Assembly (NCBI GenBank): GCA_030697825.1
Contig: JAUYOW010000199.1
Location: 1 to 58,757, forward strand
DNA from: Gemmatimonadales bacterium
Lineage (GTDB): Bacteria; Gemmatimonadota; Gemmatimonadetes; Gemmatimonadales; JACORV01
Reading direction: 5' to 3'
Length of the DNA: 58,757 bases
Shown in pieces: positions 2,928-39,203 of this stretch. Below the pieces are notes generated by a model. The model ran no database searches. It had not been told where the DNA came from and saw only the letters and a program-made list of their open reading frames with translations. Position 1 is the stretch's first letter. Every line of letters starts with the position of its first letter. Made by a program: the position numbers and the translations under genes.

Positions 2928-2977
2928 ATCGGGGCCAAAATGTTGCTGCCCGCCTTCCGGAAAGCGAGCTTTGACGG

Positions 2978-4871: not shown

Positions 4872-4872
4872 A

Positions 4873-4887: not shown

Positions 4888-4899
4888 TTCAAGGAAGCC
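4885..4899 (+). promoter_or_regulatory. Hairpin containing the ftsH ribosome-binding site
   Basis: GGCTTC (4885-4890) is perfectly complementary to GAAGCC (4894-4899) across an AAG loop. The likely Shine-Dalgarno AAGGA (4891-4895) is split between loop and stem and lies 8 nt before the ftsH ATG at 4904. The 6-bp stem could limit ribosome access. Whether it melts with temperature or has any regulatory effect is inference. Confidence 0.45.
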
Positions 4900-4903
4900 A
4901 TAG

Positions 4904-16432: not shown

Positions 16433-16457
16433 CGGCTAACGGCCATCGGCCATCGGC
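16430..16457 (+). repeat. Four tandem YAWCGGC heptamers at the ileS end
   Basis: TAACGGC-TAACGGC-CATCGGC-CATCGGC. The TAA of the first unit is the ileS stop codon. It belongs to the same family as 4873-4887 and 7718-7738, and lies 18 nt before the next start codon. Confidence 0.75.
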
Positions 16458-16475
16458 CAGGGAACGAGCCTTACA

Positions 16476-17370: not shown

Positions 17371-17375
17371 AGCGC

Positions 17376-18831: not shown

Positions 18832-19194
18832 GTGGGCCATCGAGTCCTCGTCTGCGACGACGCGATATTCATGCGGACGATGATCAGCGACATTTTGTCC
18901 AGCGCCGGCTACGAAGTCGTCGGCGAGGCAGAGACGGGGTTGCAGGCCATCGACCGTTATCGCGATCTGCGTCCCGATCTCGTCACCATGGACATCGTGA
19001 TGCCGGATATGGGCGGCATCGACGCCGTCCGCGAGATCGTCAAGGACGATCCCAACGCGAAGATCCTCATGTGCAGCGCGATGGGGCAGCAGGCCCTCGT
19101 GGTGGAGGCCATCCAGGCCGGCGCCAAGGACTTCGTCGTCAAGCCGTTCCAGCCATCGCGCGTGCTCGAAGCGGTGCAGCGCGTCCTCGGATAG
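18832..19194 (+). CDS. cheY: CheY-type single-domain response regulator
   Basis: A 120-residue receiver domain with no output domain. The acidic pocket DD is at 9-10, the phospho-acceptor Asp54 lies in TMDIVMPDM, Ser82 takes the Thr/Ser switch position and Lys104 (VVKPF) is conserved. It is the likely phosphorylation target of the CheA encoded next to it, with CheC as candidate phosphatase. The GTG start at 18832 follows AGGAAGG. It ends one base before cheA. Confidence 0.94.
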   Translation: MGHRVLVCDDAIFMRTMISDILSSAGYEVVGEAETGLQAIDRYRDLRPDLVTMDIVMPDMGGIDAVREIVKDDPNAKILMCSAMGQQALVVEAIQAGAKDFVVKPFQPSRVLEAVQRVLG

Positions 19195-21081: not shown

Positions 21082-21094
21082 ATTGGGAACGGCG

Positions 21095-21715
21095 ATGGAT
21101 GACATTCGCGATCTGAAGGAACTGCAACTCGACGCGCTGAAAGAGGTCGAGAACATCGGCGCGGGGCACGCCGCGACGGCGCTGTCACAGATGACCAACC
21201 GCCGGATCATGATCAGCGTGCCGAAGATCGCGGTGTCGCGCCTCGAGGAGGTGGCCGAGCAGCTCGGCGAGCCGAACGAGGTCGTGGCGGCCATCCTCCT
21301 GCACATGCTCGGCGACCTCACGGGGAGGACGCTGCTGGTCTTCCCGGAGAAGGCGGCCAAGCGCCTCTGCGACCTCCTGCTCGGCCGGCCGCTCGGCAAG
21401 ACGGAGAGCTTCGGCGCGCTGGAGCAGTCCAGCCTCAAGGAGACCGGCAACATCCTCTGCGGCACCTACATGAACGCGCTGTCTTCGTTCATGGGGATGA
21501 TGTTGCTGCCGTCGGTGCCGAGCCTGGTGATCGACTTCTCTTCGGCGGTCCTCACTTCGGCGTACCTCAACTTCGGCAGCGACCGCGACTACGTCTTCTG
21601 CGTCGAGACGCAGTTCATCTTCGTCAGCGAGGACGAGACGCTGCGCGGGCACTTCCTCCTCGTTCCGGACTTCGCCTCCCTCCGCGCGATCCTCCAGGCC
21701 GTCCGGCTGACCTGA
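21095..21715 (+). CDS. cheC: CheY phosphatase CheC
   Basis: A CheC-family protein of 206 residues from ATG 21095. A TTG at 21083 would add four residues. Both phosphatase signatures (D/S-x3-E-x2-N-x22-P) are intact: Asp13, Glu17, Asn20 and Pro43 in the first, and SLKETGN followed 23 residues later by Pro in the second. It should dephosphorylate CheY-P and bind CheD, which is encoded about 11 kb downstream in the same island. CheZ is absent. Confidence 0.93.
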   Translation: MDDIRDLKELQLDALKEVENIGAGHAATALSQMTNRRIMISVPKIAVSRLEEVAEQLGEPNEVVAAILLHMLGDLTGRTLLVFPEKAAKRLCDLLLGRPLGKTESFGALEQSSLKETGNILCGTYMNALSSFMGMMLLPSVPSLVIDFSSAVLTSAYLNFGSDRDYVFCVETQFIFVSEDETLRGHFLLVPDFASLRAILQAVRLT

Positions 21716-21727: not shown

Positions 21728-24412
21728 ATGCCGGCAGCCGTGGCCACGCAGCGTGATCTCGCCGTCCTGAGATCGTTCGCGCGCCGGATCGACCCGTCGG
21801 ACGCCGGTGCGCACAACAACCTCGGCGTCCTCTACTACCAGCGCGGCCTCTACCAGGAGGCCGTCTTGAGCTTCACGGGCGCGCTGGAGCTCGACCCCAG
21901 GATGGCGATCGCGCAGCGCAACCTCGAGATCGTCTATGGCGGCACCGGTTTCTACGACCGGAGGATCGCCGAGTTGCGCGAGCGGCTGCGCCAGCGCCCG
22001 GACGACCGTGACGCGCGTTGGGAGCTGGCGCGGGCCTTCGCGTCGGTGGGCCAGCTGGACGACGCGGTCGCGGAGTTCAACGCGCTGCTCGCGGAGCAGC
22101 CTCACGACCTGGGCGTACTCCTGCAACTCGGCCTGGCGGAGCAGCGTCGCGGCAACCTCGAGCAGGCGGTGGAGTGGTTCGACCGCGCGCGGGAGCTGGA
22201 CCAGGGATCGTCCGTGGTCGAGTTCCACCGCGGCGAGGTGTTCTACAACCGCGGCATGAACGACGAGGCACTGGCCGCGCTGGAGCGCGCGGTGGCGCTC
22301 AACCCGGACAACGCCGAGGCGCACCACCTCCTCGCTTTCGTGCTGGGCGACCTGGGCCGGCACGGCGAGGCGCGCCACGCGTCGAAGCGGGCGGTGCAGC
22401 TGAACCCGCTGCTGGCGCGCGCGCAGACCAACCTCTCGCTCGAGGCGCCGGCGCAGGCGCGGCAGGTGAAGCCTCCGGGGCATGCGGCGGGAGGAGCGTC
22501 CGAGGCGCAGCGCCAGATGGCGCACTGTGACCTCGGCCGGGCGTTTCGCCAGAAGGGTTACTACGCGGAGGCGCTCCGGGAGTACCGGCTCGCCCTCGAG
22601 CACGGCGAGGACCGGCAGCTCGTTCGCCAGGCCATGGCCGAAGTTCACCTCATCCGGCACGAGCTGGCCGCGGCGCTCGAGCTCTACGAGGACCTGGTTC
22701 AGGCTCAGCCGGGGAAGCCGAAGCTGTGGAACGAGCGCGGCGTCGCGTTGCACCAGTTGGGCCGTCGGGAGGACGCGCTCGCCTCCTACCGCCGCGCGAT
22801 CGAGGTCGATGCCGAGTACGCGCTCGCCTACAACAACCTCGGCGTGCTGCTCACGGCCCTCGGCCAGATGGACGAGGCGGTGGACGCGTTCCGCGGCGCG
22901 CTCCGGCGCCAGGGCGACCTGCTGCACGCCCGGCTCAACCTGGCGCTGCTCCTGTCGCAGTCGCGGCGCTACCAGCTCTCGCTGGAGGCGTACCGGCAGG
23001 CTCTCGAGACCTCGCCGGCCTCGGGCGCGGCGTGGAACGGGATCGGCCTGGTGCTGGTCGAGCTGAAGCGCTACCCTGACGCCAGGAACGCGTTCGCCCG
23101 GGCGGTGGAGGCCGATGGCGAGAACGCAGCGGCGCACTACAACCTCAGCTTCATGCTCTCCAACCTCGGGGATTTCGAGGGCGCGCTGAGGGAAGTGCGG
23201 CGGGCGCTCGAGCTGGACCCGTACTACGTGGCGCAGAAGTTCCTGCTGTCGATCGAGCTCCAGTACGAGGACCCATCGCTGACGGTCGTGCCGGATCTGT
23301 CCGGCGAGCGGCCGTTCGGCGAGAGCGGCGAGACCTTCCAGTTCGATCCGCGGCTCCTGGACGACCTATTCCGCGAGCTCAAGCCGGCCGCGCCGGCGCC
23401 CGAGAAGGACAAGACCGGCGACGACCCGCTCGCCCTGGCGCGTGACTATCTCTCGAAGTCGCTCTTCGATCGGGCGATCGCCGAGCTGACGCGCGCCATG
23501 CAGCGCGGCGCCGACCGCGCCGAGGGCGCGGTGCTCCTGGGCAGCATCTACGCGCGGCGCGGTGTCTGGGGCGAGGCGCTGGACCGCTACCGCGAGGCGC
23601 GCCGGCAGGCGCCGGGCCACCGCGGCGCGCGGGAAGGCGAGGTGCGCGCCCTGCTCGCCCTGGACCGGGCGACGGAAGCGCGGCCGCTGGCGGAGGGGCT
23701 GCTGGCCGCGTTCGACGACGACGCCGACGTCGCGCTCCTCGCGGCCGAGGCGCGGAGCGAGACCGGCGATCCTGCCGGCGCGGTGGAGATCCTGCGGCGC
23801 GCCGAGGTGCGCGCCCCGGCGCGCGCCGACATCCGGAAGCTCCTCGGCGGCGTGGCGCTGAAGGTCGGCGACGTCGAGCTGGCCCGGACAGCTTACCGCG
23901 CCGCGCTCGACCTCGACCCCGGATACGTGGAGGTCTGGCTCGAGTTCGGCCGGCTGGCGCGGGCGCGCGGTGCCGTGCGGGAGGCGGAGGAGGCGTATCG
24001 CTCCGCCCTCGAGCACCTCCCCTCGTACGCGGAGGCGGCCCATGCCCTCGCCGACCTGTTGTGCGGGGACAGCCGCGGGGGCGAGGCGATGGACGTGCTC
24101 ATCGGTACGCTGGCGCGCGACCCGTACGACTTCGAGGCGCTGATCATCCTCGCGCGCGTGCTGCTCGACGCCAACCGGGCGGCGGACGCGCTGGCCGCTT
24201 GCGAGCGAGTGGTCCGGTTCGAGCCCGACCACCTGGCGGCGCACTACTTCCTCGGCGTCGCGCTGGCGAGGGAGCGGCGCTACCGCGAGGCGGTCCAGTG
24301 GTGGGAGCGGTGCATCGCGCTCGATCCCGCGGGGACCTACGCGCAGAAGGCGCGCACCCACGCCCGCACCGCTCTCGACCTGGTGCACATCTTCGCGGGC
24401 GAGGCGGCGTAG
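21728..24412 (+). CDS. Large TPR-repeat protein of the che island
   Basis: An 894-residue, almost entirely helical protein with well over a dozen TPR motifs along its length (for example AHNNLGVLYYQRGLYQEAVLSF near residue 30 and AYNNLGVLLTALGQMDEAVDAF near 365). A proline/lysine linker around residues 555-565 separates two solenoids. There is no signal peptide or membrane segment, so it should be cytoplasmic. It starts 12 nt after cheC and is followed by the DUF4388 gene after 2 nt. It is probably a scaffold for the signalling proteins around it. No enzyme motif is seen. Confidence 0.85.
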   Translation: MPAAVATQRDLAVLRSFARRIDPSDAGAHNNLGVLYYQRGLYQEAVLSFTGALELDPRMAIAQRNLEIVYGGTGFYDRRIAELRERLRQRPDDRDARWELARAFASVGQLDDAVAEFNALLAEQPHDLGVLLQLGLAEQRRGNLEQAVEWFDRARELDQGSSVVEFHRGEVFYNRGMNDEALAALERAVALNPDNAEAHHLLAFVLGDLGRHGEARHASKRAVQLNPLLARAQTNLSLEAPAQARQVKPPGHAAGGASEAQRQMAHCDLGRAFRQKGYYAEALREYRLALEHGEDRQLVRQAMAEVHLIRHELAAALELYEDLVQAQPGKPKLWNERGVALHQLGRREDALASYRRAIEVDAEYALAYNNLGVLLTALGQMDEAVDAFRGALRRQGDLLHARLNLALLLSQSRRYQLSLEAYRQALETSPASGAAWNGIGLVLVELKRYPDARNAFARAVEADGENAAAHYNLSFMLSNLGDFEGALREVRRALELDPYYVAQKFLLSIELQYEDPSLTVVPDLSGERPFGESGETFQFDPRLLDDLFRELKPAAPAPEKDKTGDDPLALARDYLSKSLFDRAIAELTRAMQRGADRAEGAVLLGSIYARRGVWGEALDRYREARRQAPGHRGAREGEVRALLALDRATEARPLAEGLLAAFDDDADVALLAAEARSETGDPAGAVEILRRAEVRAPARADIRKLLGGVALKVGDVELARTAYRAALDLDPGYVEVWLEFGRLARARGAVREAEEAYRSALEHLPSYAEAAHALADLLCGDSRGGEAMDVLIGTLARDPYDFEALIILARVLLDANRAADALAACERVVRFEPDHLAAHYFLGVALARERRYREAVQWWERCIALDPAGTYAQKARTHARTALDLVHIFAGEAA

Positions 24413-24414
24413 CG

Positions 24415-25578
24415 ATGGCGATCGAGGGACCGCTCAAAGAGCTGGGGCTCCACGACGTCTTCCAGCTTCTCGACCTGTCGCGCAAGACGGGGGTGATGCG
24501 GATCACGAGCCATCTCCGGAACAACGAGGGGACGGTCGCGTTCGACGGCGGCGCGATCGTGTACGCCGAGATCCGCTCGAACCCGCACCGCATCGGGGTC
24601 GTGCTGGTACGCTCTGGGAAGGTGACCGAGGCGGAACTCGAGCGTGCTTGCGCGATCCAGGAGCGCGAGGTCGAGGGGGGCCGGCGGCGGCTCGGCCAGA
24701 TCCTGATCGAGATGGGCGTGATAGCGCAGCGCGAGCTCGAGCGCCAGGTGGAGATGCACGTTGCCGAGGTGGTCTTCGAGCTGCTGTCGTGGCAGGAGGG
24801 CTTCTTCTCGTTCACCGAGGAGCCGCTTGCCGGCGTCCCGGCGGACGCGATGGTGCGGATCCGCACCGAGACGCTCCTGATGGAGGGCGCGCGGCGGATC
24901 GACGAGTGGTCGAGGATCGAAAGCCACATCCCGCACCTCGACGTCATCCCCGTGCTCGCGCCGATCGATGCGGAAGGTGAGTTGGCCCACCTCGACCTGC
25001 TGCCCGCCGAGTGGGAGGTGCTGGCGCAAGTGGACGGCGCGCGCGACGTGCGGCAGGTGGCGCAGAGCCTGGGACGGTCGGAGTTCGAGGTAGCGCGGAC
25101 CCTGTTCGGGCTGGTCTCGACGGGGGTGCTCGCTCTGCACGATCCGGCGGCGCAGCGGAAGCCGCGGGCCTCGATCACCGACGCCGCCGGGGCGCTGCTC
25201 GCCACCGCGGAGTTGCGGCTGGAGGCCGGCGACGTGGCGGCCGCCAAGGCGGCTGCGCTCGCCGCCGCATCGCTCCGGCCCGACGAGGCGCGGGTCCACC
25301 TCGTGCTCGGGCGCGCGCACCTGAGGGACGGCTACTGGAGCGAAGCCGTCGAGGAATGCCGCAAGGCGGTCCGGCTCGACCCCGAGATCGCGGACCCGTA
25401 CCGATGGTTCGGGCTCGCGCTCGCCGCCACCGGCCGGTTCCGTGAAGCGCGCGAGCAGTGGGACCGGTGGGAGCGGTTGGTTGACGGCGAGGCTGAGCCC
25501 GACGCCCGCCAGCAGATCGCGTCGGCGAAGCTGGCGGCGGCGACGTTGGAGCAGCTGCTGGGAGGCGCGCGTGGCTGA
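24415..25578 (+). CDS. DUF4388 (PATAN)-MshEN-like-TPR protein, paralogue 1
   Basis: A 387-residue protein. Residues 1-55 match the start of DUF4388/PATAN, first named from cyanobacterial PatA. Residues 59-82 and 92-115 are two 24-residue repeats of the MshEN type (R-[LI]-G-x-x-L-[VI]-x-x-G-x-[IV]-x4-L), except that the final Gln of the second repeat is His. A winged-helix-like middle and C-terminal TPRs (about residues 255-350) follow. MshEN repeats bind c-di-GMP in known type II secretion and pilus ATPases, so nucleotide sensing is predicted but untested. I chose ATG at 24415, two bases after the TPR gene. It overlaps the next gene by 8 nt. Confidence 0.82.
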   Translation: MAIEGPLKELGLHDVFQLLDLSRKTGVMRITSHLRNNEGTVAFDGGAIVYAEIRSNPHRIGVVLVRSGKVTEAELERACAIQEREVEGGRRRLGQILIEMGVIAQRELERQVEMHVAEVVFELLSWQEGFFSFTEEPLAGVPADAMVRIRTETLLMEGARRIDEWSRIESHIPHLDVIPVLAPIDAEGELAHLDLLPAEWEVLAQVDGARDVRQVAQSLGRSEFEVARTLFGLVSTGVLALHDPAAQRKPRASITDAAGALLATAELRLEAGDVAAAKAAALAAASLRPDEARVHLVLGRAHLRDGYWSEAVEECRKAVRLDPEIADPYRWFGLALAATGRFREAREQWDRWERLVDGEAEPDARQQIASAKLAAATLEQLLGGARG

Positions 25579-27943: not shown

Positions 27944-29902
27944 GTGGACCTTAACCCACGGTTCCGGTTCGAGTCCTTCGTCGTGGGCGCCAGCAACCGG
28001 CTCGCGGCGACCGCGTCGCAGGCCGTCGCGGCCTCACCCGGGGCCGCCTACAACCCTCTCTTCCTTTACGCGAAGTCGGGGCTCGGCAAGACCCACCTCC
28101 TCCAGGCTGTCGGCCACGGAGTGCTCGATCGCCAGCCGGCGATGCGGGTCCGCTACCTGACCCTCGAGGAGTTCGTCGAGCAGTACCACGCCGCCGTCGC
28201 GGCGGGCCAGAGCGACGCTTTCCGGAGGAGCGCGGAAGAGGCCGACGTCCTGCTCATCGACGACGTGCAGTTCCTCGCCAAGCACCGCGAGCTTCAGTCG
28301 GAGCTGCTGCGCCTCTCCGAGGCGCTCCAGGTCGCGGAGTGCCAGCTGGTCCTCACGTCGGACCGGCCGCCGTCGGAGATCCAGGACCTGGACGAGCGGC
28401 TGGTCTCGCGCCTCTCCGGCGGTCTCCTGGTGGACATGGCGGCGCCCGATTTCGAGACCCGTCTGGCGATCCTCCGGCGCAAGTCCGACGAGCGCGGTAT
28501 GGTGTTCGCCTCTGGCGTGCTGGAGACGGTGGCGGAGGTCGGCGCGTCGAACGTGCGGGAGCTGGTCGGGCTCGTGAACCGCCTGATCGCGTTCCAGGCC
28601 GTGAGCGACACGCCGCTCACTCCGCAGGGCGCGCGCTCCCTCCTCACCGGCGAAGTGTCCGAGGGCGGGGAGGCCGCCGCATCCGCGCCCCCGCCTCCGC
28701 CGGCCGCGGCCGAGGAGGTCCGCGACGAGTTCTCTGCCTTTCTCTCCGCAGTCACGCGCACGGTGGCGCAGTCGCTCGATGCCTGGCGCTCGCGCATCGG
28801 CGAAGCGGTGATGCGGTGGCAGGGCGAGGGTTACCGGACCGCGCGGCTCGAGCAGCTGCTCCACAGCGAGAGCGTCCCCGACGTGGACGGCGCGATCGCG
28901 AAGTTCGCCGCCGACGTCGAGGAGCTGCAGCGCCTGGCGGGAGAGGTGGCCGGGCTGGATGCCGCCGCGGCGGGGCACGCGCGTTTCCGAGACCCCGACC
29001 GACTCGACGAGGCGCGCGCGTTCGCCGCGCGACTGCTCGAGGGTACCGCCCCGCCCCCGGCGCCCTCCGCGGCGCTGTCCTTCGACGACTACATCGAGGG
29101 CCAGGCCAACGAGGCCGTGGTGCGCGCGGCGCGGCTCATCGCGCGCGAGCCCGGCCGGCGGTACAACCCGCTCTTCATCGTGGGGCCGAGCGGGGTGGGG
29201 AAGACCCACCTCCTGCATGCGGTCGGAAACGCGCTCGCCGCGGGGCCGTCCGGCACGACGGTCGCGTGCCTCTCCTCCCAGTCGTTCGTCGAGGAGTTGG
29301 TCGCGGCGATTGACGGAGGCAACATCGAGTGGTGGCGGCGCCGCTACGGCCGCGCCGACGCCCTCCTGGTGGACGACGTGCAGCTCATCGCGGGCAAGGA
29401 GCGGACCCAGGAGGAGCTGCTCAACCTCTTCAACGCACTAGCCGACGCCGAGAAGCAGCTCGTCTTCACCGCCGACCGCCTGCCGGCCCAGCTCAAGGAC
29501 ATCGCGCCGCGTCTTGTCACCCGGTTCGAAGGTGGCCTCGTCGCGGAACTCGGCGCGCCCGACCGCACCATGCGGGAGAAGATGGTGCGGAAGCTGCTCC
29601 AGGCGCATGGCGTCGCCGCTGAGGACGACGTCGTCCAGTACCTGGCCGCGCGGCCGGCCGACAGCGCGCGGGCGGTGCGGGGGCTCGTGAACCGAGCCCT
29701 GTCGTCCATGGGCTCCGCCGACTCCGCGCTGACCATGCGGACGGCGCGGACCGCGATCGAGGGCCGCACGGCTCGCCCGTCGCAGGCCCAGGCGATCTCG
29801 GCGCTGGTCCCGTCCGGACTCGATCCCGCGCTCGCGAGCCGCGAGAAGATCGTGTGGGACTGGCCCGACGCAGGTGAGCGGCTGATCGAGGAGCTGCGCT
29901 GA
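27944..29902 (+). CDS. Tandem DnaA-type AAA+ ATPase lacking the DNA-binding domain
   Basis: A 652-residue protein with two DnaA-like ATPase modules. Module 1 (about 8-220) has Walker A AKSGLGKT at 43-50, Walker B LLIDD at 103-107, sensor I TSD at 138-140, RLVSR and sensor II NVRELVG. Module 2 (about 380-590) has GPSGVGKT at 414-421, LLVDD at 474-478, TAD at 509-511, RLVTRF and a SARAVRG sensor II. Both keep the helices where DnaA has its initiator insertion. There is no C-terminal helix-turn-helix domain IV. Residues 245-375 are a Pro-rich linker plus a helical segment with WRSRIGEAVMRWQGEGYRT. It starts with GTG 1 nt after mglA and overlaps the next gene by 1 nt, so it belongs to the polarity module rather than replication. 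Confidence 0.85.
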   Translation: MDLNPRFRFESFVVGASNRLAATASQAVAASPGAAYNPLFLYAKSGLGKTHLLQAVGHGVLDRQPAMRVRYLTLEEFVEQYHAAVAAGQSDAFRRSAEEADVLLIDDVQFLAKHRELQSELLRLSEALQVAECQLVLTSDRPPSEIQDLDERLVSRLSGGLLVDMAAPDFETRLAILRRKSDERGMVFASGVLETVAEVGASNVRELVGLVNRLIAFQAVSDTPLTPQGARSLLTGEVSEGGEAAASAPPPPPAAAEEVRDEFSAFLSAVTRTVAQSLDAWRSRIGEAVMRWQGEGYRTARLEQLLHSESVPDVDGAIAKFAADVEELQRLAGEVAGLDAAAAGHARFRDPDRLDEARAFAARLLEGTAPPPAPSAALSFDDYIEGQANEAVVRAARLIAREPGRRYNPLFIVGPSGVGKTHLLHAVGNALAAGPSGTTVACLSSQSFVEELVAAIDGGNIEWWRRRYGRADALLVDDVQLIAGKERTQEELLNLFNALADAEKQLVFTADRLPAQLKDIAPRLVTRFEGGLVAELGAPDRTMREKMVRKLLQAHGVAAEDDVVQYLAARPADSARAVRGLVNRALSSMGSADSALTMRTARTAIEGRTARPSQAQAISALVPSGLDPALASREKIVWDWPDAGERLIEELR

Positions 29903-31524
29903 TGGCGATCAAGGGCAGCCTGCGCGAAGCGAGCCTACCCGACGTCCTCCAGTTGCTCTCGATGGGGCAGAAGACGGGGTGCCTCTCGGTCGCAGACCGG
30001 AGCAACTTCGGCTACATCTTCTTCGACGCGGGCTCCATCACCTACGCCTCGATCGTCAACCGGCGGGACCGCCTCGGCGACATCCTGGTCAAGAGCGGCC
30101 TCATCACCGGCGAACAGCTCCAGGCCGCCATCGACCGCCAGGCGAAGGTGCGCAACAAGCGACTGGGCGAGATCCTGGTGGAGATGGGCGCCCTCTCGCG
30201 TCCGGACCTCGAGCGCTACATGCGGGTGCAGATCGAAGAGGCGGTCTACTACCTCTTCACGTGGTCGTCGGGGACGTTCAGCTTCGAGAGCGAGGTCCGT
30301 CCCGAAGAGCAGGACTTCTTGGTCCGCATCGGCCCCGAGTCCCTCCTCCTCGAGGGCGCGCGGCGGGTGGACGAGTGGAGCCTCATCGAGAAGAAGATCC
30401 CGAGCTTCGACCTGATCTTCGTGGTCGAGCGGCAGCGGCTCGAGACCTCGGACGTGCATCTTACCGCTGAACAGGAGCGGATAATCCGGCTGCTCGACGG
30501 CCAGCGCGACGTGGCGCGCGTCCTGGAGGACTCGGGCCTGCTCGAATTCGAGGTCGGCAAGGCGCTATTTGGCCTCATCACCGCCGGCTTCGCCCACCGC
30601 CTGGGAAAGACGCAGGCTTTCGAGGGGGCGCCCGCGGCCAACGAGCGGCGAGTCGAGGAACACCGTAACCTCGGACTGGCGTTCTACAAGACCGGGATGT
30701 TCGACGAGGCGGGACGGGAGTTCCACCGCGTGGTGGACCTTCGCGCCCAGGACGAGCAGGCGCACTTCTTCCTCGGCCTGGTCGCGCTGAGGCAGTCCCG
30801 GTGGGGCGACGCGGTGGACGCACTGCGCCACGCGGTCGAGCAGAGCGGCGGACGCGGGGCGGTGCTGCACAACCTGGCGGTGGCGCTGGAGCAGATGGGG
30901 CGGCTCGCCGAGGCCGACGCCGCGTTCGCCGCCGCGGCCGCGCGCGCGCCTAACGACGCGCGCGTCCTGGTCGGTTGGGGTGTGGTAGCGCTCAAGCGCG
31001 GGCTTGGTGAGGAGGCGGTCGAGCGTCTCGACCGGGCGCGCGGCTTGCTCGGGGAGAAGCCCCCGTCCGCGGTGTGGTACTGGGCGCGGGCGCTCGCCGC
31101 CGTCGTGGCGGGAGCTCAGGAGGGCGCGATCGCCGTGGCTGAAGAGGGAGTGGGCCGCTATCCCAAGAGCGCGCCGCTCCGCAACAACCTGGCGGCCCTG
31201 CTGGAGCGCGCCGGCCAGCTGGAGCGGGCCGAGCAACTGCTCGCCGCCGCGCTCGAGGATGACCCGTCGCTCCCGCAGCTGTCGAAGAACCTCGGGGACC
31301 TCTGCTACCGGAGCGGCCGTGCCGAGGAGGCGCAGCAGGCGTACCAGCGGGCCATCAAGCTCGCGCCGCGGCTCGGGGAGGACGTCTACTTCAAGCTCGG
31401 CAACCTCGCCTTCAAGCAACTCCGCCAGGACGAGGCGATGGGCTACTGGCGCGAGGTGATCGCGATGGACCCAACCCACGAGCTGGCGCGGCGCAACCTC
31501 GAGACGCTGGAGCGGGTGAGGTGA
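29902..31524 (+). CDS. DUF4388 (PATAN)-MshEN-like-TPR protein, paralogue 2
   Basis: A 540-residue protein with the same architecture as the gene at 24415. PATAN covers about 1-55. Two full 24-residue MshEN-type repeats lie at residues 57-80 (begins RLGDILVKSG, ends in Gln) and 87-110 (begins RLGEILVEMG, ends in Gln) with a 6-residue spacer. A winged-helix-like region and a longer TPR array (about 250-530) follow. The repeats match the c-di-GMP-binding pattern better than paralogue 1. It overlaps the AAA+ gene by 1 nt and cheR by 1 nt. Prediction: c-di-GMP-sensitive adaptor between the chemosensory proteins and MglA. Confidence 0.83.
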   Translation: MAIKGSLREASLPDVLQLLSMGQKTGCLSVADRSNFGYIFFDAGSITYASIVNRRDRLGDILVKSGLITGEQLQAAIDRQAKVRNKRLGEILVEMGALSRPDLERYMRVQIEEAVYYLFTWSSGTFSFESEVRPEEQDFLVRIGPESLLLEGARRVDEWSLIEKKIPSFDLIFVVERQRLETSDVHLTAEQERIIRLLDGQRDVARVLEDSGLLEFEVGKALFGLITAGFAHRLGKTQAFEGAPAANERRVEEHRNLGLAFYKTGMFDEAGREFHRVVDLRAQDEQAHFFLGLVALRQSRWGDAVDALRHAVEQSGGRGAVLHNLAVALEQMGRLAEADAAFAAAAARAPNDARVLVGWGVVALKRGLGEEAVERLDRARGLLGEKPPSAVWYWARALAAVVAGAQEGAIAVAEEGVGRYPKSAPLRNNLAALLERAGQLERAEQLLAAALEDDPSLPQLSKNLGDLCYRSGRAEEAQQAYQRAIKLAPRLGEDVYFKLGNLAFKQLRQDEAMGYWREVIAMDPTHELARRNLETLERVR

Positions 31525-32342
31525 TGGCCGCCGCGTCGCCGGATGATGCCTCGCTGGGCGCACTCCTCGCCAAGATCGAGCGCATGCGGGGCTTCGCCAT
31601 CAGCAGCTACAAGGAGCCGTGCCTGCGGCGGCGGCTGGCGGTGCGGATGCGGGCCCGCGGCGTCCACACCTTCGGCGCGTACGCCGCGGTCCTCGACCGC
31701 GCCCCCGAGGAGTACGACCTGCTCCTCGACGCGCTCACGATCAACGTCACGAAGTTCTTCCGCAACCCGGAGACCTACGCGCTGCTCCGGAGCCGGGTGG
31801 TCCCGGAGTTGGCGGGCCACCACCGGGCAGTCGCCGTGTGGTCGGCCGGCTGCGCGACCGGCGAGGAGCCGTACTCGCTCGCCCTCCTCTTCGCGGAGCA
31901 AGCCGCCCTGGGCGCGGTGGCGGGTGCGCGCAGCCACGTGCGCATCGACGCCACGGACCTCGATCCCGCCGTGATCGAGACCATGAAGCGCGCCGAATAC
32001 GCGGCGCCCGCCGTGGAAGAGGTGCCGAAGGCCCTCCTGAACCGGTACTTCTCTCCGGGGCCGCCGTTCCGCCTCGATGCGGCCATCACTCGCCTGGTGC
32101 GCCCGATGCGGCACGACCTGACGCGCGATCCTCCGCCGCATCCGCCGTACGACCTCATCGTCTGCCGTAACGTGGTCATCTACTTCGACCGCCCCACTCA
32201 GGAGCGGCTCTTCCAGAGGCTCTTCGACGCGCTGGTGCCGGGCGGCTACCTGCTGCTCGGCAAGGTCGAGACGTTGTTCGGGCCGCCGCGGGGCAAGTTC
32301 CATCTCGAGGATCCGCGCGAGCGGCTATTCCGCCGGCCGTGA
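31524..32342 (+). CDS. cheR: Chemotaxis protein methyltransferase CheR
   Basis: A 272-residue SAM-dependent enzyme that methylates receptor glutamates. It has an N-terminal helical CheR domain, the SAM-binding motif VWSAGCATGEEPYSLALL near residue 100, and CRNVVIYFD near residue 213. No TPR or pentapeptide tether is fused. ATG at 31524 overlaps the previous stop. A GTG at 31521 adds one residue. Its target receptors are not in the window. Confidence 0.95.
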   Translation: MAAASPDDASLGALLAKIERMRGFAISSYKEPCLRRRLAVRMRARGVHTFGAYAAVLDRAPEEYDLLLDALTINVTKFFRNPETYALLRSRVVPELAGHHRAVAVWSAGCATGEEPYSLALLFAEQAALGAVAGARSHVRIDATDLDPAVIETMKRAEYAAPAVEEVPKALLNRYFSPGPPFRLDAAITRLVRPMRHDLTRDPPPHPPYDLIVCRNVVIYFDRPTQERLFQRLFDALVPGGYLLLGKVETLFGPPRGKFHLEDPRERLFRRP

Positions 32343-32821
32343 ACGAGCGCATCGTCAAGGTCGCGGACTGGGCGGCGGACACCGGAGACACGGTCCTAGT
32401 GACGCTGGGCCTCGGCTCATGCGTGGCGATGACACTCTACGATCCGGTCGCCCAGGCCGGCGCGCTGGCGCATCTGATGCTTCCGTCGCAGGCGCTGTCG
32501 CAGGACCGCTCCCGCCCGGGCAAGTTCCCGGAGACGGCGCTGCCGGTGCTGCTCGAGCGGCTGACCGCCCTGGGAGCGTCTCGGCGGCGGTTGCGGGCGC
32601 GGCTGGTCGGCGGCGCGAGCATGTTCGCCAACACTTCCGCCCCCGGGGCGCCGGGCATGGGGGAGCGCAACGTGCTCGCGGCCAGGGACGTGCTGAAGTC
32701 CGCGCACCTCCCGATAGTCGGTGAGGACACCGGGAAGGCCCACGGGCGATCGGTCTACTTCTATCTTCGGGATGGTCGGCTCGAAGTCCGGTCGGTCGCG
32801 CATGGGAACCGAGAGGTCTGA
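32339..32821 (+). CDS. cheD: Receptor glutamine deamidase CheD
   Basis: A 160-residue protein. The catalytic residues line up with the known CheD triad: Thr22, Cys28 (in LGLGSC) and His45 (in GALAHLMLP). RLVGGASMF is also typical. CheD deamidates receptor glutamines and binds CheC to raise its phosphatase activity, and both partners are in this island. GTG at 32339 overlaps cheR by 4 nt, and the 3' end overlaps cheB by 20 nt. Confidence 0.95.
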
Positions 32822-33884
32822 GCGGAGGCCGTCCGTCCTGGTGGTGGACGATAGTGCCCTGATGCGCCGGGTACTCTCGGACATCATCACGGGTTCGGGC
32901 GAGTTCCGCGTCGTCGGCACGGCGCGCAACGGTCTCGACGCGGTCAGGAAGGTGCACGCCTACCAGCCGGACCTGGTGACGATGGACTTGTCCATGCCCG
33001 AGCTCGACGGCTTGGGCGCGATCGGGTACATCATGAGCGAGACGCCGCGTCCCATCGTCGTGGTGAGCGCGCGCGCGGGCCGCGACTGCGAGGAAGCGAT
33101 CCGCGCTCTCGAGCTGGGCGCGGTGGACCTGGTCGAGAAGCCCGACGGGAGCGGCAGGGACTCGGCGGCGACCGTGGCGCCGCGGCTGATCGCCGCGTTG
33201 CGCGCCGCGGTGGCCGCGGACTTGGGCCACGTGCGGGTGATGGCGCGCCCGCGGCCCGCGCAACCCCGCGGCCCGGAGACCCCGGGAACGGCGCGCCTCG
33301 CGCTGGCCATCGCCGCCTCGACGGGGGGGCCGCGCGCGCTCGCGGAGGTGATCCCGGCGTTGCCGGCCGGGCTCCAGGCGGCGACGCTGGTCGTGCAGCA
33401 CATGCCTGGCGGCTTCACCAGGAGCCTCGCCGAGCGGCTGGACAGCCAGTCCCGGCTGCGGGTGGTGGAAGCCGAGCACGGCGTCGTGGCCCACGCCGAC
33501 ACCGTCTACATCGCGCCGGGCGACTACCACCTTCGGGTGCGCGGCCATGCCGGCGCGGCGACGCTCGAGCTCTCGCGGGAGCCGACGCTGTGGGGTGTAC
33601 GGCCGGCCGCCGACCACCTCTTCCGTTCCGTCGCCGAGGTGTTCGGCCCGGCTTCGGTGGGCGTGGTGCTGACGGGGATGGGGCGCGACGGGGCGGAGGG
33701 CCTGCTGGCCATACGCGAGGCCGGCGGCGCGACGATCGCCCAGGATCGCGATACGGCGGTAGTCTACGGCATGCCGCTCGCGGCGGTGCAGGTCGGGGGC
33801 GCGCGCGAGGTGGCGCCGCTCGATCGCATCGCGGAGCGCAGCTCCACCGAACTGATGCGCCTGCGCCTGACGGGACGCGCGTGA
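32802..33884 (+). CDS. cheB: Chemotaxis methylesterase CheB
   Basis: A 360-residue two-domain protein. The receiver domain has Asp62 in VTMDLSMP as the phospho-site. The methylesterase domain has catalytic Ser in AASTGGP, His in VVQHMP and Asp in LTGMGRDG. It removes receptor methyl groups when phosphorylated by CheA. I chose ATG at 32802 inside the cheD end. The frame stays open further upstream but adds a non-conserved, basic extension. Confidence 0.95.
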
Positions 33885-34309
33885 TCGCGGCCGAGGCCTT
33901 CCTGGTGGTGCGCGCCGGCGGGGAGCGGTACGGCATCGGCCTGGGCATGGTGCGTGAGGTGGTGGACGTCTCGGTGCTGCGTGCAGTGCCCGCGCGCACT
34001 CCGGCGATGCGCGGTGTGATGCTGCTGCGCGAGCGGTTCCTATCGCTGGTTCACCTCGGGGCGCTGCTAGCGGGGGGCGTGCCGGCGCCGGCAGTGGGGG
34101 ACACGGCGGTAGTCGTGTACGTGGGCGAGGCGGCCGTCGCTCTCGAGGTGGACGAAGTGCTCGAGGTCGTGGAGGGCGGCGCGACGTTCGTGGGGAGCGC
34201 GCCGGCGTCGTGGGCGGCGGGGGTGTGGCGCGTGGGTACCGAACTGGTCACGGTGATCGACCTGGAAGCCTTGGCCGAGCGCCTGACCGCAATCGAGGAG
34301 CCGGCATGA
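33881..34309 (+). CDS. cheW: CheW-like coupling protein (second)
   Basis: A 142-residue single CheW domain ([57 protein letters not shown]). GTG at 33881 overlaps cheB by 4 nt. Compared with the third CheW it lacks the usual R-G-x-x-x-P-V-I-D-L core and is more divergent, so it may couple a different receptor or partner. Confidence 0.82.
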
Positions 34310-34785
34310 GCCAAGGTGACGACATCCAGGTCGTCGTCTTCCGCGTGGGCGGGCAGGAGTTCGCCTTCAACGTCTTCCACGTCCAGCGCATTCTGCGCTA
34401 CGAGGCGCCGTCGCCACTGCCCAAGGCCCCCGCCTTCCTCGAGGGGATCCTGCAGGTGCACGGCGCGGTCGTGCCGGTGATCGATCTGCGAAAGCGGTTC
34501 GAGCTCGCCGATGCGCGCCTGCGCGAGGAAACGCGGATGATGGTACTCGAGTGCGACGGGGTGAATGTGGCGGTCATCGTGGACGCGGTCCTCGAAGTGC
34601 TGCGTATCAGCTCCGAAGCCGTCAGCCTGCCGCCCGCCGTGGTTCGCGGCCTCGCCGCCGAGTACATCCAGGGCATCATCACGGTCGGGGCGCGGACGGT
34701 CGTCCTCCTTCAGACCGGCCGGCTCGTCACTTCGTCGGAGCGGATCTCGCTCGAGGCCATCCAGGCGGAGCCGGTCCATGGCTGA
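34306..34785 (+). CDS. cheW: CheW-like coupling protein (third)
   Basis: A 159-residue CheW with a standard core (VVVFRVGGQEFAFNVFHVQRIL, GILQVHGAVVPVIDLRKRF, VDAVLEVLRIS, YIQGIITVGARTVVLL). It is the most canonical of the three and a good candidate for the main CheA-receptor coupler. ATG at 34306 overlaps the second cheW by 4 nt, and the 3' end overlaps the TPR gene by 8 nt. Confidence 0.92.
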   Translation: MSQGDDIQVVVFRVGGQEFAFNVFHVQRILRYEAPSPLPKAPAFLEGILQVHGAVVPVIDLRKRFELADARLREETRMMVLECDGVNVAVIVDAVLEVLRISSEAVSLPPAVVRGLAAEYIQGIITVGARTVVLLQTGRLVTSSERISLEAIQAEPVHG

Positions 34786-35653
34786 CGAGCTGGGGGGCGC
34801 GTTGCGCTCCCGCTACGCCCAGATCTCCGCCGCGCTCGACGCGGCCAATGGCCAGGCCGAGCTGGACGCGTCTAAAAAGGACATCATCGGCTTCTTCAAG
34901 CAGGTGGATGCGGCCATCGGCGAGTTGACGGCGCTGAAGGACGAGATCAAAGTGCTGGTGGACCGCTACAAGCAGCTCGCGGCGGGCACCAAGCCCACGG
35001 CGCCCGAGTTCTCCGGCGAGAAGCCGGTGATCCACTCCGACCACATCGGCGCCTCGACCTTCATCGAGAAGGGCTGGAGCCTGCTCTCGCTTGGCGACTA
35101 CGCCGGTTCCATCCAGGCGCTCAACAAGGCGATGGAGCTCTCGCCGAACGACGCGCAAACGGAGTCGCTCCTGGGCTGGGCGCAAATGCTGAAGGAGGAC
35201 TACGACGACGCACTCATGACCTTCCAGAAGGTCCTGATGAGAGAGCCCAACAACTCGCTCGCTCGCATAAACGTCGGCTACATCTGCCTCAAGAAACGCA
35301 TCTTCGGCGAGGCGATCGAGCACCTGTCGAAGGCCATCCGAATGGCCAACGACAAGAAGGCGACCCTCTACGCGCACTACTACCTCGGCCTCGTCTACCT
35401 CGAGCGGGAGATGTACGAGGACGCGGACAACTTCTTCCGGAAGACGCTGGAGCTGGGCCCCAACCTAATCGAGGCATACTACCAGCTGGGGCGGGCCCAG
35501 TGGTACGCCGGGGACCAGGAGGCGGCCAAGGCATCCTGGGAGGGCGGTTTCGCGGCGAACAAGTTCAATCCCTGGGGTAAGAAGTGCAGGGAGATGCTAC
35601 AGACGATCGAGGCCGGTGGGGTTCCGCCGCCGCCCGGGAACAGCGGCGCTTGA
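34778..35653 (+). CDS. TPR protein at the end of the che island
   Basis: A 291-residue cytoplasmic protein. Residues 1-70 look like a helical coiled coil. At least four TPRs lie between about 85 and 270 (for example KGWSLLSLGDYAGSIQALNKAM and AHYYLGLVYLEREMYEDADNFF). ATG at 34778 overlaps the third cheW by 8 nt, so it is the last gene of the island. It ends in a short Pro/Gly tail. Partner unknown. Confidence 0.82.
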   Translation: MADELGGALRSRYAQISAALDAANGQAELDASKKDIIGFFKQVDAAIGELTALKDEIKVLVDRYKQLAAGTKPTAPEFSGEKPVIHSDHIGASTFIEKGWSLLSLGDYAGSIQALNKAMELSPNDAQTESLLGWAQMLKEDYDDALMTFQKVLMREPNNSLARINVGYICLKKRIFGEAIEHLSKAIRMANDKKATLYAHYYLGLVYLEREMYEDADNFFRKTLELGPNLIEAYYQLGRAQWYAGDQEAAKASWEGGFAANKFNPWGKKCREMLQTIEAGGVPPPPGNSGA

Positions 35654-35878: not shown

Positions 35879-35953
35879 GGGCGAATAGCTCAGCTGGTCC
35901 AGAGCGCCTGCCTTACACGCAGGATGTCGGGGGTTCGAATCCCTCTTCGCCCA
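35879..35953 (+). tRNA. tRNA-Val (anticodon TAC)
   Basis: The 75-nt cloverleaf has acceptor strands GGGCGAA and TTCGCCC, discriminator A, anticodon stem CCTGC/GCAGG around loop CTTACAC (anticodon TAC) and T-loop TTCGAAT. The CCA end is not encoded. It reads GTA and other GTN codons by wobble. Confidence 0.95.
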
Positions 35954-36010
35954 TTGGATCGGGTGGCCGGTGATCTTCGACCGAGCAGTGGAACGTTCTC
36001 GGAGGATAGG

Positions 36011-37765
36011 ATGATCTGGCGCGCCGCACCCGTTGCCACCCTTTGCCGGGCGGCCCTTCTCACCCTGCTGGCCGCGACGTACGGTGTCGCGCCCGCGGCG
36101 GCGCAGTTGGCGCGCGTGATGACGTCGCCTCCGGATGCCCCGAAGCTGCTCGTGGTGCCGTTCGCGCGGGACAGCGCCGACTCGGCGATGGCGGTCGGTA
36201 TCCCCGACGGGCTGCGCGAACGGATGCGGCTGTCCCGCTCTCAGACCTTCAACGTGATCCCCAAAGCCGGGATGAACGAGGCGCTCGTCGCCAGCGGCTT
36301 CCCTCAGGACATGCCGCTCGAGCCGAGCGTGGCGCGGCAGCTCGCGCGCTTCCTCAACGTCCGCATCCTGGTCGAGGGCAACATCCTCCGTAGGGGCGAT
36401 TCAATGCTGGTGATCGCCCGGCTCGCTGAGACCTCCGGACTCGCGCCGCAGAGCGCGACCGCCTCCATCATGACTTCGCGCGCGCGCGCCAACGGCGGCA
36501 CCGGTTCGGACCTCGCCAACCGGCTCGCGGACGCCTACCGCTCGTTCGAGCAGGCGACCAACTGCCGCCGCGCCGTGGATTCGCTCGCGAACGCGCGCAG
36601 CACCGCCGACTCGACGCGCTTCTTCACCCGCGCCCAGCAGGGGGCGGACCGCGCGCTCCAGCAGTACCAGCAGAGCGCCGGCGCGCACCTGTGTGTGGCT
36701 CTCATCCGGCGCGCGCAGGGGGCGCCCTCCGACTCGGTGCTCGCCTCGTTGCAGCGCGCCGAGCAGTCGGATTCTCTCAACTCGCTCGTGCTGCGCCAAC
36801 TCGCCCGCGTCTACGAGGAGCGAGGAGACACGGCCAATCTGCTGCACCAATTGCACCACATCCTCAAGGTCGAGCTCAGGAATGACACTCTACGGGTGAA
36901 CACGGCCCGCCTCTTCGTGCAGCACGGCATGGCTGACAGCGCCGTCGCCCTCATCGACGAAGGGCTGGCCGGGAGCCCGAGCAGCGTCACGCTGCTCAAC
37001 GCCAGGAGCATCGCGCTCGCGGCGGCCCGCCGTTGGATGGACGCGGCGGCGACGCTCGCGCAGGTCGCCGAGGTGGACTCGGCGAACATCGACTCGCTGT
37101 TCGTATACCGGATCACCAACTACTACCAGCAGGTGCCGGACTCAGCCAACCTGCTCGTGTGGACGCGGATCGCGACCCGCCGGCTCCCGCAACAAGCGCT
37201 CTACTGGTACAACCTGGCTAACCTGTCCTACGCACGCGCCGACACGGCCGGCGCGGTGGCCGCCATACGCGAGTATGTGCGCCAGGTGCCGACGGCCGGC
37301 CGGGGGCATCTGGTCTACGCGACCTACTTGCTCGGCATGAACCAGGTGGACTCGGCGCTGTTCCAGGCGACGGAGGCCGCCGCGGTCGACTCGACCCTCA
37401 GGAACTCGGCGGCGTCGGTGTGGCTGTCGGGCGGGGTCCGAGCGCTCCAGCCGCCCCCGAACTACCCGCTGGCCGAGCAGCGATTGGGCCAGGCGAGGTC
37501 GTACGCCACGGGCCGCATCCTCGTCACGGCATCCTACTACCTGGGTCTCTCGCAGGTCCAGCAGGGCTTGGTGTCGGACACGGCCGCCGGCAACAATCGG
37601 AACTGCGACGCGGCGCGTCGCGCGCAGGAGCTCTGGAGCAACGCGGAGCAGAACATCATCGCGGGCGCGGCGCAGAACCGCGAGCAGGCCAACCAGCTGT
37701 TGACGCAGGTCATTCCGACATATAAGCAGCGGTCGGACGCGATGACCCGGAATTTCTGCCGTTGA
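36011..37765 (+). CDS. Secreted TPR-repeat protein
   Basis: A 584-residue protein with a signal peptide (hydrophobic stretch, probable cleavage after APAAA near residue 31). Residues about 45-165 resemble a TolB-N/CsgG-like fold (KLLVVPFARDSADSAMAVGIPDGLRERM, VRILVEGNILRRGDSMLVIARL). The rest is a TPR-like helical array rich in Ala, Asp and Ser. Likely periplasmic or cell-envelope. I chose ATG at 36011, preceded by GGAGGA. The frame continues upstream through the tRNA-Val gene, which is a shadow. Specific role unknown. Confidence 0.82.
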   Translation: MIWRAAPVATLCRAALLTLLAATYGVAPAAAQLARVMTSPPDAPKLLVVPFARDSADSAMAVGIPDGLRERMRLSRSQTFNVIPKAGMNEALVASGFPQDMPLEPSVARQLARFLNVRILVEGNILRRGDSMLVIARLAETSGLAPQSATASIMTSRARANGGTGSDLANRLADAYRSFEQATNCRRAVDSLANARSTADSTRFFTRAQQGADRALQQYQQSAGAHLCVALIRRAQGAPSDSVLASLQRAEQSDSLNSLVLRQLARVYEERGDTANLLHQLHHILKVELRNDTLRVNTARLFVQHGMADSAVALIDEGLAGSPSSVTLLNARSIALAAARRWMDAAATLAQVAEVDSANIDSLFVYRITNYYQQVPDSANLLVWTRIATRRLPQQALYWYNLANLSYARADTAGAVAAIREYVRQVPTAGRGHLVYATYLLGMNQVDSALFQATEAAAVDSTLRNSAASVWLSGGVRALQPPPNYPLAEQRLGQARSYATGRILVTASYYLGLSQVQQGLVSDTAAGNNRNCDAARRAQELWSNAEQNIIAGAAQNREQANQLLTQVIPTYKQRSDAMTRNFCR

Positions 37766-37769
37766 GCGC

Positions 37770-37798
37770 TTGTACCGGTCCTCCGAGGTTTCTATATT
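37770..37798 (+). promoter_or_regulatory. Sigma70-type promoter of tRNA-Asp
   Basis: TTGTAC (37770-37775), a 17-nt spacer and TATATT (37793-37798), followed 17 nt later by the first base of tRNA-Asp. It is the best consensus-like promoter in the window. Confidence 0.65.
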
Positions 37799-37815
37799 GA
37801 ATGGCTTACCCGCGG

Positions 37816-37892
37816 GGGGCTGTAGCTCAGCTGGTTAGAGCGCCGGTCTGTCACACCGGAGGTCGCGGGTTCGAGCCCCGTCAGCCCCGCCA
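37816..37892 (+). tRNA. tRNA-Asp (anticodon GTC)
   Basis: The 77-nt gene includes the encoded CCA (37890-37892). Acceptor strands are GGGGCTG and CAGCCCC, discriminator G, anticodon loop CTGTCAC (GTC) and T-loop TTCGAGC. It is followed by a terminator-like hairpin. Unlike tRNA-Val in this window, it encodes its CCA end. Confidence 0.96.
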
Positions 37893-37895
37893 TCC

Positions 37896-37934
37896 ACGCC
37901 CCACCTGCCGAGGCAGGCGGGGCGTTTCCTTTTC
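37896..37934 (+). terminator. Rho-independent terminator after tRNA-Asp
   Basis: ACGCCCCACCTGCC pairs with GGCAGGCGGGGCGT across a 2-base loop (14-bp stem, one A-C mismatch), followed by the T-rich run TTCCTTTT (37926-37933). It would end the tRNA-Asp transcript before the dcw cluster. Confidence 0.75.
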
Positions 37935-37947
37935 GGGCGATGGTCAT

Positions 37948-37982
37948 GGGTGACATGTGATGAGTGACGGGTGACGGGTGAT
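37948..37982 (+). repeat. Degenerate GGGTGAC/ATGTGAT tandem repeat upstream of rsmH
   Basis: GGGTGAC (37948-37954), ATGTGATGAGTGAC, GGGTGAC (37969-37975) and GGGTGAT (37976-37982) form a tandem 7-nt pattern between the tRNA-Asp terminator and rsmH. It provides several spurious GTG/ATG codons. A related GGTGATGA array precedes ftsY. Confidence 0.65.
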
Positions 37983-38012
37983 GCTGGGGGTGGGCTGCGG
38001 CCCGTTGGCGCG

Positions 38013-38918
38013 GTGGCGGTCTTCGAGCACCGAAGTGTGCTGCTCGAAGAGGTCGCCGGGCTGTTGTCCGGGTGCCGCCGCATCCTCGACGGCACGGCCG
38101 GCGCCGGCGGCCACGCCCGTCGCCTGGCTGAGGCCGGCGCGCTGGTCGTTGCGATCGACCGCGACCCCGATGCGGTGCGCGCCGCGCGCGCCACGCTCGG
38201 CGAGTCGGCGACCGTGAGGCAGCTTGATTTCGCCGATGCCGCCCGCGACTCGGACATATCGTCCTTGGCGCCGGACGGGATCCTCCTCGACCTCGGCGTC
38301 TCGTCTCCCCAGATCGACGATGCATCGCGCGGCTTCACGTTCCGCCCCGGCGCACCGCTCGACATGCGCATGACCGCCGATGACGGACCGACCGCCGCTC
38401 AATGGCTGAACGATGCCCCCGCCGCGGAGCTCGGCGCCGCCTTCGCCGATTTCGGCGACGAACCGCGAGCGAGGGCCCTGGCCCGCGAGCTCGTGCGCCG
38501 GCGCGCTTCCCACGCCTTCGCCGTCTCCGACGACCTCGTCAACGCCATTCGCGCCGTTCTGGGCCCCCGTAGTGGCCCCGCTGACTTCGCGCGGCTCTTC
38601 CAGGCGGTGCGGATCGCCGTCAACGGTGAGCTGGATCGGCTGGCACGGGCGCTCCCCGGACTACTGGGCGTCCTTTCGTCGGGCGGCGTGCTGGCGGTGA
38701 TCAGCTACCACTCTGGCGAGGACCGCATCGTGAAGCACGTCTTCCGCGAGTGGGCTCGCGATTGCGGGTGCCCGCCGCGGCAGCCGGTGTGCACCTGCCG
38801 CGGCCGCGCCCTGGGGACGGTGGTCACCAAGCGGGCCATCGTGCCGACGCCGGACGAGGTCGCGGCCAACCCGCGCGCCCGCAGCGCCCGGTTGCGGGCG
38901 TTCAGGAAGGCGGCGTGA
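38013..38918 (+). CDS. rsmH: 16S rRNA m4C1402 methyltransferase
   Basis: A 301-residue SAM-dependent enzyme, the first gene of the dcw cluster. Conserved segments are EHRSVLLEEV, the SAM motif DGTAGAGGHA, LLDLGVSSPQ, RGFTFRPGAPLDMRM and ISYHSGEDRIVK. I chose GTG at 38013 because conservation begins immediately after it. A GTG at 37971 would add 14 residues encoded partly by the tandem repeat. mraZ, normally upstream, is absent. It overlaps ftsL by 4 nt. Confidence 0.95.
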   Translation: MAVFEHRSVLLEEVAGLLSGCRRILDGTAGAGGHARRLAEAGALVVAIDRDPDAVRAARATLGESATVRQLDFADAARDSDISSLAPDGILLDLGVSSPQIDDASRGFTFRPGAPLDMRMTADDGPTAAQWLNDAPAAELGAAFADFGDEPRARALARELVRRRASHAFAVSDDLVNAIRAVLGPRSGPADFARLFQAVRIAVNGELDRLARALPGLLGVLSSGGVLAVISYHSGEDRIVKHVFREWARDCGCPPRQPVCTCRGRALGTVVTKRAIVPTPDEVAANPRARSARLRAFRKAA

Positions 38919-39199
38919 ACCTCAAGGGCCGTCACTGGCTCGCCCTGTGGCTGGGGGGATTCCTGGCGGTGGCTTGGGTAGTGGTGTGGCGGCGGACCGC
39001 GGCGCGCGCCGCGGCCGACGAGCTTCGAGCGCTGGCGGTGGCGCGGGGCGCGCTCGAGGTGTCCAAGGCTACCGCCGCCGCCGAGATCCTGAAGGCGCGC
39101 AGCCGAGCCGTGCTGGTGCCGCTAGCCGAGCGCCGGCTGGGCCTGCGCTTGCCTCAGGACTCGGAGATCATCATTCTGCAGGACCCTCGTTCCAGGTAA
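38915..39199 (+). CDS. ftsL: Cell division protein FtsL
   Basis: A 94-residue bitopic protein with a short N-terminus, one membrane helix (about residues 6-24) and a heptad-rich periplasmic helix, ending LGLRLPQDSEIIIL. This fits FtsL in size, topology and position between rsmH and ftsI, although FtsL sequences are poorly conserved. It should form the FtsQLB complex. No FtsB gene is seen nearby. I chose GTG at 38915. Confidence 0.8.
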   Translation: MNLKGRHWLALWLGGFLAVAWVVVWRRTAARAAADELRALAVARGALEVSKATAAAEILKARSRAVLVPLAERRLGLRLPQDSEIIILQDPRSR

Positions 39200-39203
39200 G
39201 GGC

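Follow-up and report, generated by a model that had tools for sequence, protein, structure and literature searches.

A DnaA-derived tandem ATPase without domain IV encoded in a putative pilus-polarity operon of Gemmatimonadota

Introduction

The replication initiator DnaA contains an AAA+ core, domain III, with an initiator-specific helix, Walker A and B motifs, a box VII arginine finger and a sensor II arginine, which is accompanied by an N-terminal domain I for helicase and DiaA binding and by a C-terminal helix-turn-helix domain IV that binds DnaA boxes; structures of domain III are available from B. subtilis (8bv3, 8btg), T. maritima (2z4r), and A. aeolicus (1l8q, 2hcb), and motif roles have been described (PMC5742627). 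Hda, which acts on DnaA in the RIDA reaction of E. coli, is an AAA+ module of the DnaA clade that keeps the arginine finger with a weakened ATP site and possesses an N-terminal clamp-binding motif. In Myxococcus xanthus, MglA, together with Roadblock, TPR and chemosensory proteins, belongs to a polarity network controlling type IV pili (T4aP), and PATAN proteins were among the candidate partners of SgmX (PMC11580455), whereas in cyanobacteria the PATAN regulator PixE is linked to PilB1 (PMC7690835). DUF4388 corresponds to the PATAN domain of the literature. Finally, the c-di-GMP-binding MshEN domain, located at the N-terminus of pilus ATPases such as MshE (5htl), PilF, and PilB, is characterized by two RLGxx..G......L...L..Q motifs separated by a spacer of about 5 residues (PMC5013675).

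Here we analyse a locus of a Gemmatimonadales bacterium in which elements of these systems occur together in one operon. The window, i.e., the whole stretch of DNA analysed, comprises 58,757 nucleotides (contig JAUYOW010000199.1 of assembly GCA_030697825.1). Compared with DnaA, the protein studied here (tDnaA) has two domain III modules (D1 and D2) in one chain, lacks domains I and IV, has lost the ssDNA-contact residues in D1, possesses a unique linker and tail, and is encoded in a che/mgl/DUF4388 context. In contrast to Hda, the module carrying the arginine finger is covalently joined to its inferred target module, no clamp-binding motif was seen on inspection of the N-terminus, and the gene is not in a replication context. 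DnaA is not mentioned in the paper on the M. xanthus network (PMC11580455), and here all components are in one operon. Literature searches gave no relevant hit for DnaA with MglA and Gemmatimonadota, MglA and motility, DUF4388 or PATAN, and no paper found describes this protein.

Results

The ORF encodes two DnaA domain III modules and no domain IV

The features of the locus are collected in Table 1. A Pfam scan of the 652-aa protein detects two Bac_DnaA domains (total 349 bits against a cut-off of 23) and no Bac_DnaA_C, and in the whole genome domain IV (PF08299) occurs only once, namely in the separate true dnaA on another contig. Walker A, Walker B, the box VII arginine, and the sensor II arginine are present in both modules, and domain I is lacking as D1 begins at residue 3. 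The gene starts 1 nt after the mglA stop codon and its TGA overlaps the next ATG by 1 nt. The architecture is conserved in orthologues, and an AF2 model derived from 62 sequences (pLDDT 89) shows two DnaA-like folds joined by a helical hairpin, the best PDB match being DnaA domain III 8bv3 (TM 0.95 on the target; 42% identity between D1 and 8bv3), although the arrangement of D1 and D2 relative to each other is not fixed by the model (pTM 0.53) and the tail is left unstructured. Therefore, the observation made in the sequence-only reading, which had described two complete DnaA-type ATPase modules without domain IV in an MglA/Che operon, is confirmed, with the refinement that two complete modules are true for this protein but not across the family. 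Automatic annotation calls this protein DnaA.

Table 1. Features of the tDnaA locus (positions in the window)
Position	Strand	Feature	Evidence
27944..29902	+	Tandem DnaA-type AAA+ protein (tDnaA), 652 aa, GTG start	Orthologue alignments
27950..28651	+	D1: DnaA domain III module, residues 3-236; ATP site conserved in 127/127 tandem homologues	PF00308; motif table; AF2/Foldseek
28073..28096	+	D1 Walker A (SGLGKTHL region)	Motif table
28250..28273	+	D1 Walker B (LLIDDVQF)	Motif table
28409..28411	+	D1 Arg finger R156 (E. coli R285); kept in 120/127	Motif table
28556..28558	+	D1 sensor II R205 (E. coli R334); kept in 123/127	Motif table
28727..29038	+	Linker: conserved helical hairpin (predicted helices 262-294, 300-306, 314-338, 351-365) with the W..GEGYRT signature; persists in homologues that lack D2 or both ATPases	Homologue comparison; AF2
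29069..29761	+	D2: second DnaA domain III module, residues 376-606; evolves faster, P-loop lost in 19/127	Pfam; motif table; tree
29183..29206	+	D2 Walker A (intact in this genome)	Motif table
29522..29524	+	D2 Arg finger R527 (E. coli R285); kept in 124/127 and in 19/19 proteins whose D2 P-loop Lys is lost	Motif table
29837..29899	+	C-terminal tail motif (S)REKIVWDWPDAGERLIEELR; conserved in tandem, single-ATPase and ATPase-less homologues	Homologue comparison
29902..31524	+	DUF4388b: DUF4388 (PATAN-type) + TPR protein, inferred partner; starts within -1 to a few nt of the tDnaA stop in most loci	Pfam; natural fusion in one locus
30070..30231	+	MshEN-type insert in DUF4388b (residues 57-110, two RLG...Q motifs), predicted to bind c-di-GMP	NF053729, 59 bits; PDB profile hits to PilF, MshE and PilB; Foldseek 5htl, rmsd 1.1 A; published motif (PMC5013675)
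27331..27942	+	MglA-type small GTPase	Weak family scores; conserved directly upstream of tDnaA
26859..27326	+	MglB-like Roadblock protein	PF03259, NF052242
26338..26862	+	Roadblock/LC7 protein	PF03259
25442..26512	+	TPR protein with a weak C-terminal Roadblock domain (start uncertain)	
24409..25578	+	DUF4388a: DUF4388 + TPR paralogue, also with a MshEN-like insert	
21728..24412	+	894-aa TPR protein	
21083..21715	+	CheC-like phosphatase	PF04509
19196..21061	+	CheA kinase	
18832..19194	+	CheY-like receiver	PF00072
31521..32342	+	CheR	
32339..32821	+	CheD	
32721..33884	+	CheB (start uncertain)	ORF; assigned from its sequence and conserved position only
34210..34785	+	CheW (a second CheW-like ORF at 33590-34309)	Second ORF by position only
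34775..35653	+	TPR protein closing the conserved cluster	

Distribution and genomic context in Gemmatimonadota

A search with the whole protein found full-length or near full-length homologues in most of 60 relatives, and the linker profile matched 146 of 249 sampled Gemmatimonadota genomes, which by inspection also have an MglA, whereas the family is absent from many related genomes that all have DnaA. A scan of a named collection with a linker pattern that reaches close relatives only gave 69 loci, all from Gemmatimonadota-type MAGs except for one contig of 3,159 bp labelled Planctomycetota (isolate SJ480), which carries mglA-tDnaA-DUF4388b and is possibly a misbinned Gemmatimonadota contig.

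In the 69 named loci, wherever the contig is long enough, the order CheY, CheA, CheC, TPR, DUF4388a, TPR/Roadblock, Roadblock, MglB, MglA, tDnaA, DUF4388b, CheR, CheD, CheB, CheW, TPR is largely conserved. All 30 relatives of the first set have mglA directly upstream of tDnaA. Genus g8 seemed to lack the operon mglA in the genome search, but its loci (L027, L029, and L031) do hold a diverged one, about 40% identical and directly upstream, while tDnaA and DUF4388b are still about 50% identical to those of the window. Families f4, f6, and f9 of the same class have the cluster too. In contrast, family f5 keeps only the tDnaA-DUF4388b pair, at the same place (yggS-like gene, ileS, rluD, at 11168-18407 in the window, then tDnaA; loci L149-L151 and L162) where the window has the che/mgl block between rluD and tDnaA. 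Whether f5 lost the block or the others gained it is not settled, although the D1 tree nests f5 among block-carrying families, which favours loss. In the window the cluster is followed (35924-41144) by a 613-aa ORF without Pfam match and then by mraW and a penicillin-binding protein gene, the start of a division gene cluster.

Three findings that had been named beforehand as speaking against the sequence-only reading, i.e., homologues beside replication genes, a hidden domain IV in relatives, and a lack of conserved linkage with mglA, were looked for within Gemmatimonadota and not encountered; neither replication neighbours nor a hidden domain IV were found in about 100 loci and the whole genome. 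A second MglA lies near recR-like and dnaX-like genes, apart from the che cluster, in one further locus (L164, positions 2133-5957), and many Gemmatimonadota have two MglAs.

DUF4388b is the constant neighbour of tDnaA

The start codon of DUF4388b lies 1 nt inside the tDnaA stop in 65/91 loci and within 20 nt in 88/91. In one metagenome-type genome (locus L204), D1, linker, D2, tail, and DUF4388b are fused in a single frame of 1026 aa. A 987-aa ORF in loci L206/L152 looked like a second fusion of this kind, but appears to leave the frame after about residue 366 and was discarded.

Two genera, g6 and g27, lack tDnaA while keeping mglA, DUF4388b, and PilB, and in these the DUF4388b protein lacks an insert of roughly 55 residues (absent in 8/8) that is present in 128/128 loci with tDnaA family members, whereas the paralogue DUF4388a keeps its insert in one of the two genera, g6. 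As both genera belong to one family, the loss of tDnaA plus insert may represent a single event. Locus L160, with insert but without tDnaA, is judged to be a DUF4388a hit on a truncated contig and not an exception.

The insert is identified as MshEN-type by an NCBIfam model, by PDB profile search with hits to PilF (1.3e-12), MshE, and PilB, and by Foldseek. In the window protein the two motifs cover residues 57-80 and 87-110, with a spacer of 6 instead of 5 residues, and the domain is inserted inside a DUF4388 domain. Across homologues, however, a strict pattern fits both motifs in only 20/99 and at least one in 57/99, and therefore c-di-GMP binding seems likely for the window protein and uncertain for parts of the family.

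D1 and D2 evolve differently

In 127 tandem proteins, D1 keeps the Walker A lysine and both Walker B aspartates without exception and is the best conserved region (mean pairwise identity 0.56). In contrast, D2 has lost its P-loop lysine in 19 proteins, and its lid is missing in some lineages, yet all 19 keep the arginine finger R527 and the box VII residue R523. In 6 of the 7 proteins whose D1 finger is lost the D2 finger remains, including the L204 fusion, which has an ATP site only in D1 and a finger only in D2. In family f5, D2 resembles Hda in keeping the arginine finger with a weakened ATP site. Three D2 modules (L167, L219, and L224) have lost the finger. The 19 P-loop losses fall in one family plus one other lineage, and the number of independent events is therefore small.

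Of the residues of the H/B motifs that contact ssDNA (E. coli V211 and R245), D1 has lost both, V211 being replaced mostly by H and R245 by E in 115/127, whereas D2 keeps the residue types (I/V and R); DnaA of Gemmatimonadota itself has I and M/S at these positions.

Phylogenetic analysis shows that D1 and D2 are each monophyletic, sister to each other (support 0.997), and separate from the DnaA proteins sampled, of which there were few, so that one duplication preceded the radiation of the class. Single-ATPase proteins (f6, f9, and genus g18) nest inside D1, so D2 was lost secondarily. At two loci (L142 and L143), short proteins have lost both ATPase modules and retain only the linker and an EKxVWDWP-like tail, still directly upstream of DUF4388b. 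Linker and tail are thus the most persistent part of the protein. The Trp/GYRT helix in the linker, left unexplained in the sequence-only reading, is the end of a long predicted helix (262-294) of this conserved helical hairpin, for which no convincing match was found in Pfam (best E about 0.004) or PDB.

Co-occurrence with type IV pilus genes

The window's genome has PilB, PilT, and PilC and no FlhA. In 52 selected genomes, PilB is over the cut-off of the model in 26/27 carriers of tDnaA and in 9/25 non-carriers, whereas FlhA occurs in 4/27 and 3/25, respectively, and a flagellar output is therefore not favoured. Within family f5 alone, PilB is found in 5/6 carriers and in 0/8 non-carriers (p=0.003), although p-values are only indicative as the set was chosen by hand and the genomes are related.

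Discussion

The interpretation given in the sequence-only reading is partly supported. A DnaA-clade ATPase without domain IV outside replication gene contexts, conserved linkage to mglA and che genes across the order and several other families, and a covalent pair acting as a built-in dimer are supported, the latter by the retention of the D2 finger after loss of its own ATP site, and the central suggestion of a role in a polarity or motility pathway is strengthened. However, MglA as the main partner is not supported.

In the explanation that we consider about as likely as not, tDnaA is a DnaA-derived ATP switch without DnaA-box binding, in which D1 would bind and hydrolyse ATP, whereas D2, a duplicated module that is turning into a pseudo-ATPase, would supply the arginine finger to a D1 ATP site, within the chain or between chains, and would in effect be a fused Hda-like activator. 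The motif pattern is what one expects if D2 completes the D1 site, although the D2 site of the window protein itself is intact. The linker and the WDWP tail would couple the ATP state to the DUF4388b scaffold, whose MshEN-type insert probably binds c-di-GMP and whose TPRs would contact other clients. In most lineages this pair sits inside a CheA/MglA/MglB/Roadblock pathway, where tDnaA would be an accessory to the MglA/MglB polarity module and not a member of it, and, considering the roles of MglA and PATAN proteins in type IV pilus control (PMC11580455, PMC7690835), pilus activity or polarity is the most likely output. While the architecture, its conservation, synteny, fusion, co-loss, motif pattern, and PilB co-occurrence are established by our analysis, physical binding between the proteins, c-di-GMP binding, ATPase activity, the direction of signalling, and the pilus output are inferred from sequence and context. 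Also, as g6 and g27 keep mglA, DUF4388b, and PilB without this protein, it is not essential to that pathway there.

Among alternatives, a non-enzymatic scaffold, in which linker and tail are the working part and the AAA+ modules only drive oligomerisation without need for a regulated ATP cycle, survives best but seems unlikely. Although the stepwise loss of ATPase modules, while linker, tail, and the DUF4388b insert stay, would be in favour, the invariant Walker residues of D1, its well kept sensor II, and its high conservation argue against it. That tDnaA is a direct effector or regulator of MglA, to which its ATP state would report, is suggested by the position immediately downstream of mglA in most Gemmatimonadales loci, but is rather doubtful, since f5 keeps the tDnaA-DUF4388b pair away from any mglA, fusion and co-loss point to DUF4388b, and mglA persists without tDnaA in g6 and g27; as an obligatory partner MglA is rejected by these loci. 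A role as replication regulator, either as an Hda-like activator of DnaA-ATP hydrolysis or as a helicase-loader-like factor linking motility to replication, is improbable, because, although D2 resembles Hda as a finger donor and keeps DnaA-like ssDNA-contact residues, there are no replication gene neighbours in the loci examined, no clamp-binding motif was seen, the family is absent from many genomes that have DnaA, and linker and tail persist without the ATPases. Least likely is an action on transcripts or DNA by binding of ssDNA or RNA through D2, which is not excluded by its retained residues, but these may be kept for packing between modules, D1 has lost them, and domain IV is absent.

A more far-reaching view, which we hold only tentatively and consider slightly less likely than not, is that a DnaA-clade ATPase has been exapted into bacterial motility and polarity signalling, an intramolecular ATPase/Arg-finger pair, i.e., a RIDA-like reaction in one chain, being docked on a c-di-GMP-sensing PATAN/TPR scaffold and forming an ATP-driven switch between the Che/MglA pathway and the type IV pilus machine. 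To our knowledge, no DnaA-family protein has been given such a role. A phylum-wide ATPase, presumably involved in signalling, is hidden under a replication name, and if the model is right, the DnaA clade is used as a protein-protein switch outside replication, a natural one-chain system exists for studying Arg-finger activation, and a defined c-di-GMP/ATPase component is added to MglA-type polarity control in Gemmatimonadota, whose motility is hardly studied. In this context, PilB of this genome (locus L182, positions 829-2667) also carries a MshEN c-di-GMP motif (67 bits), so that pilus motor and DUF4388 proteins may read the same messenger.
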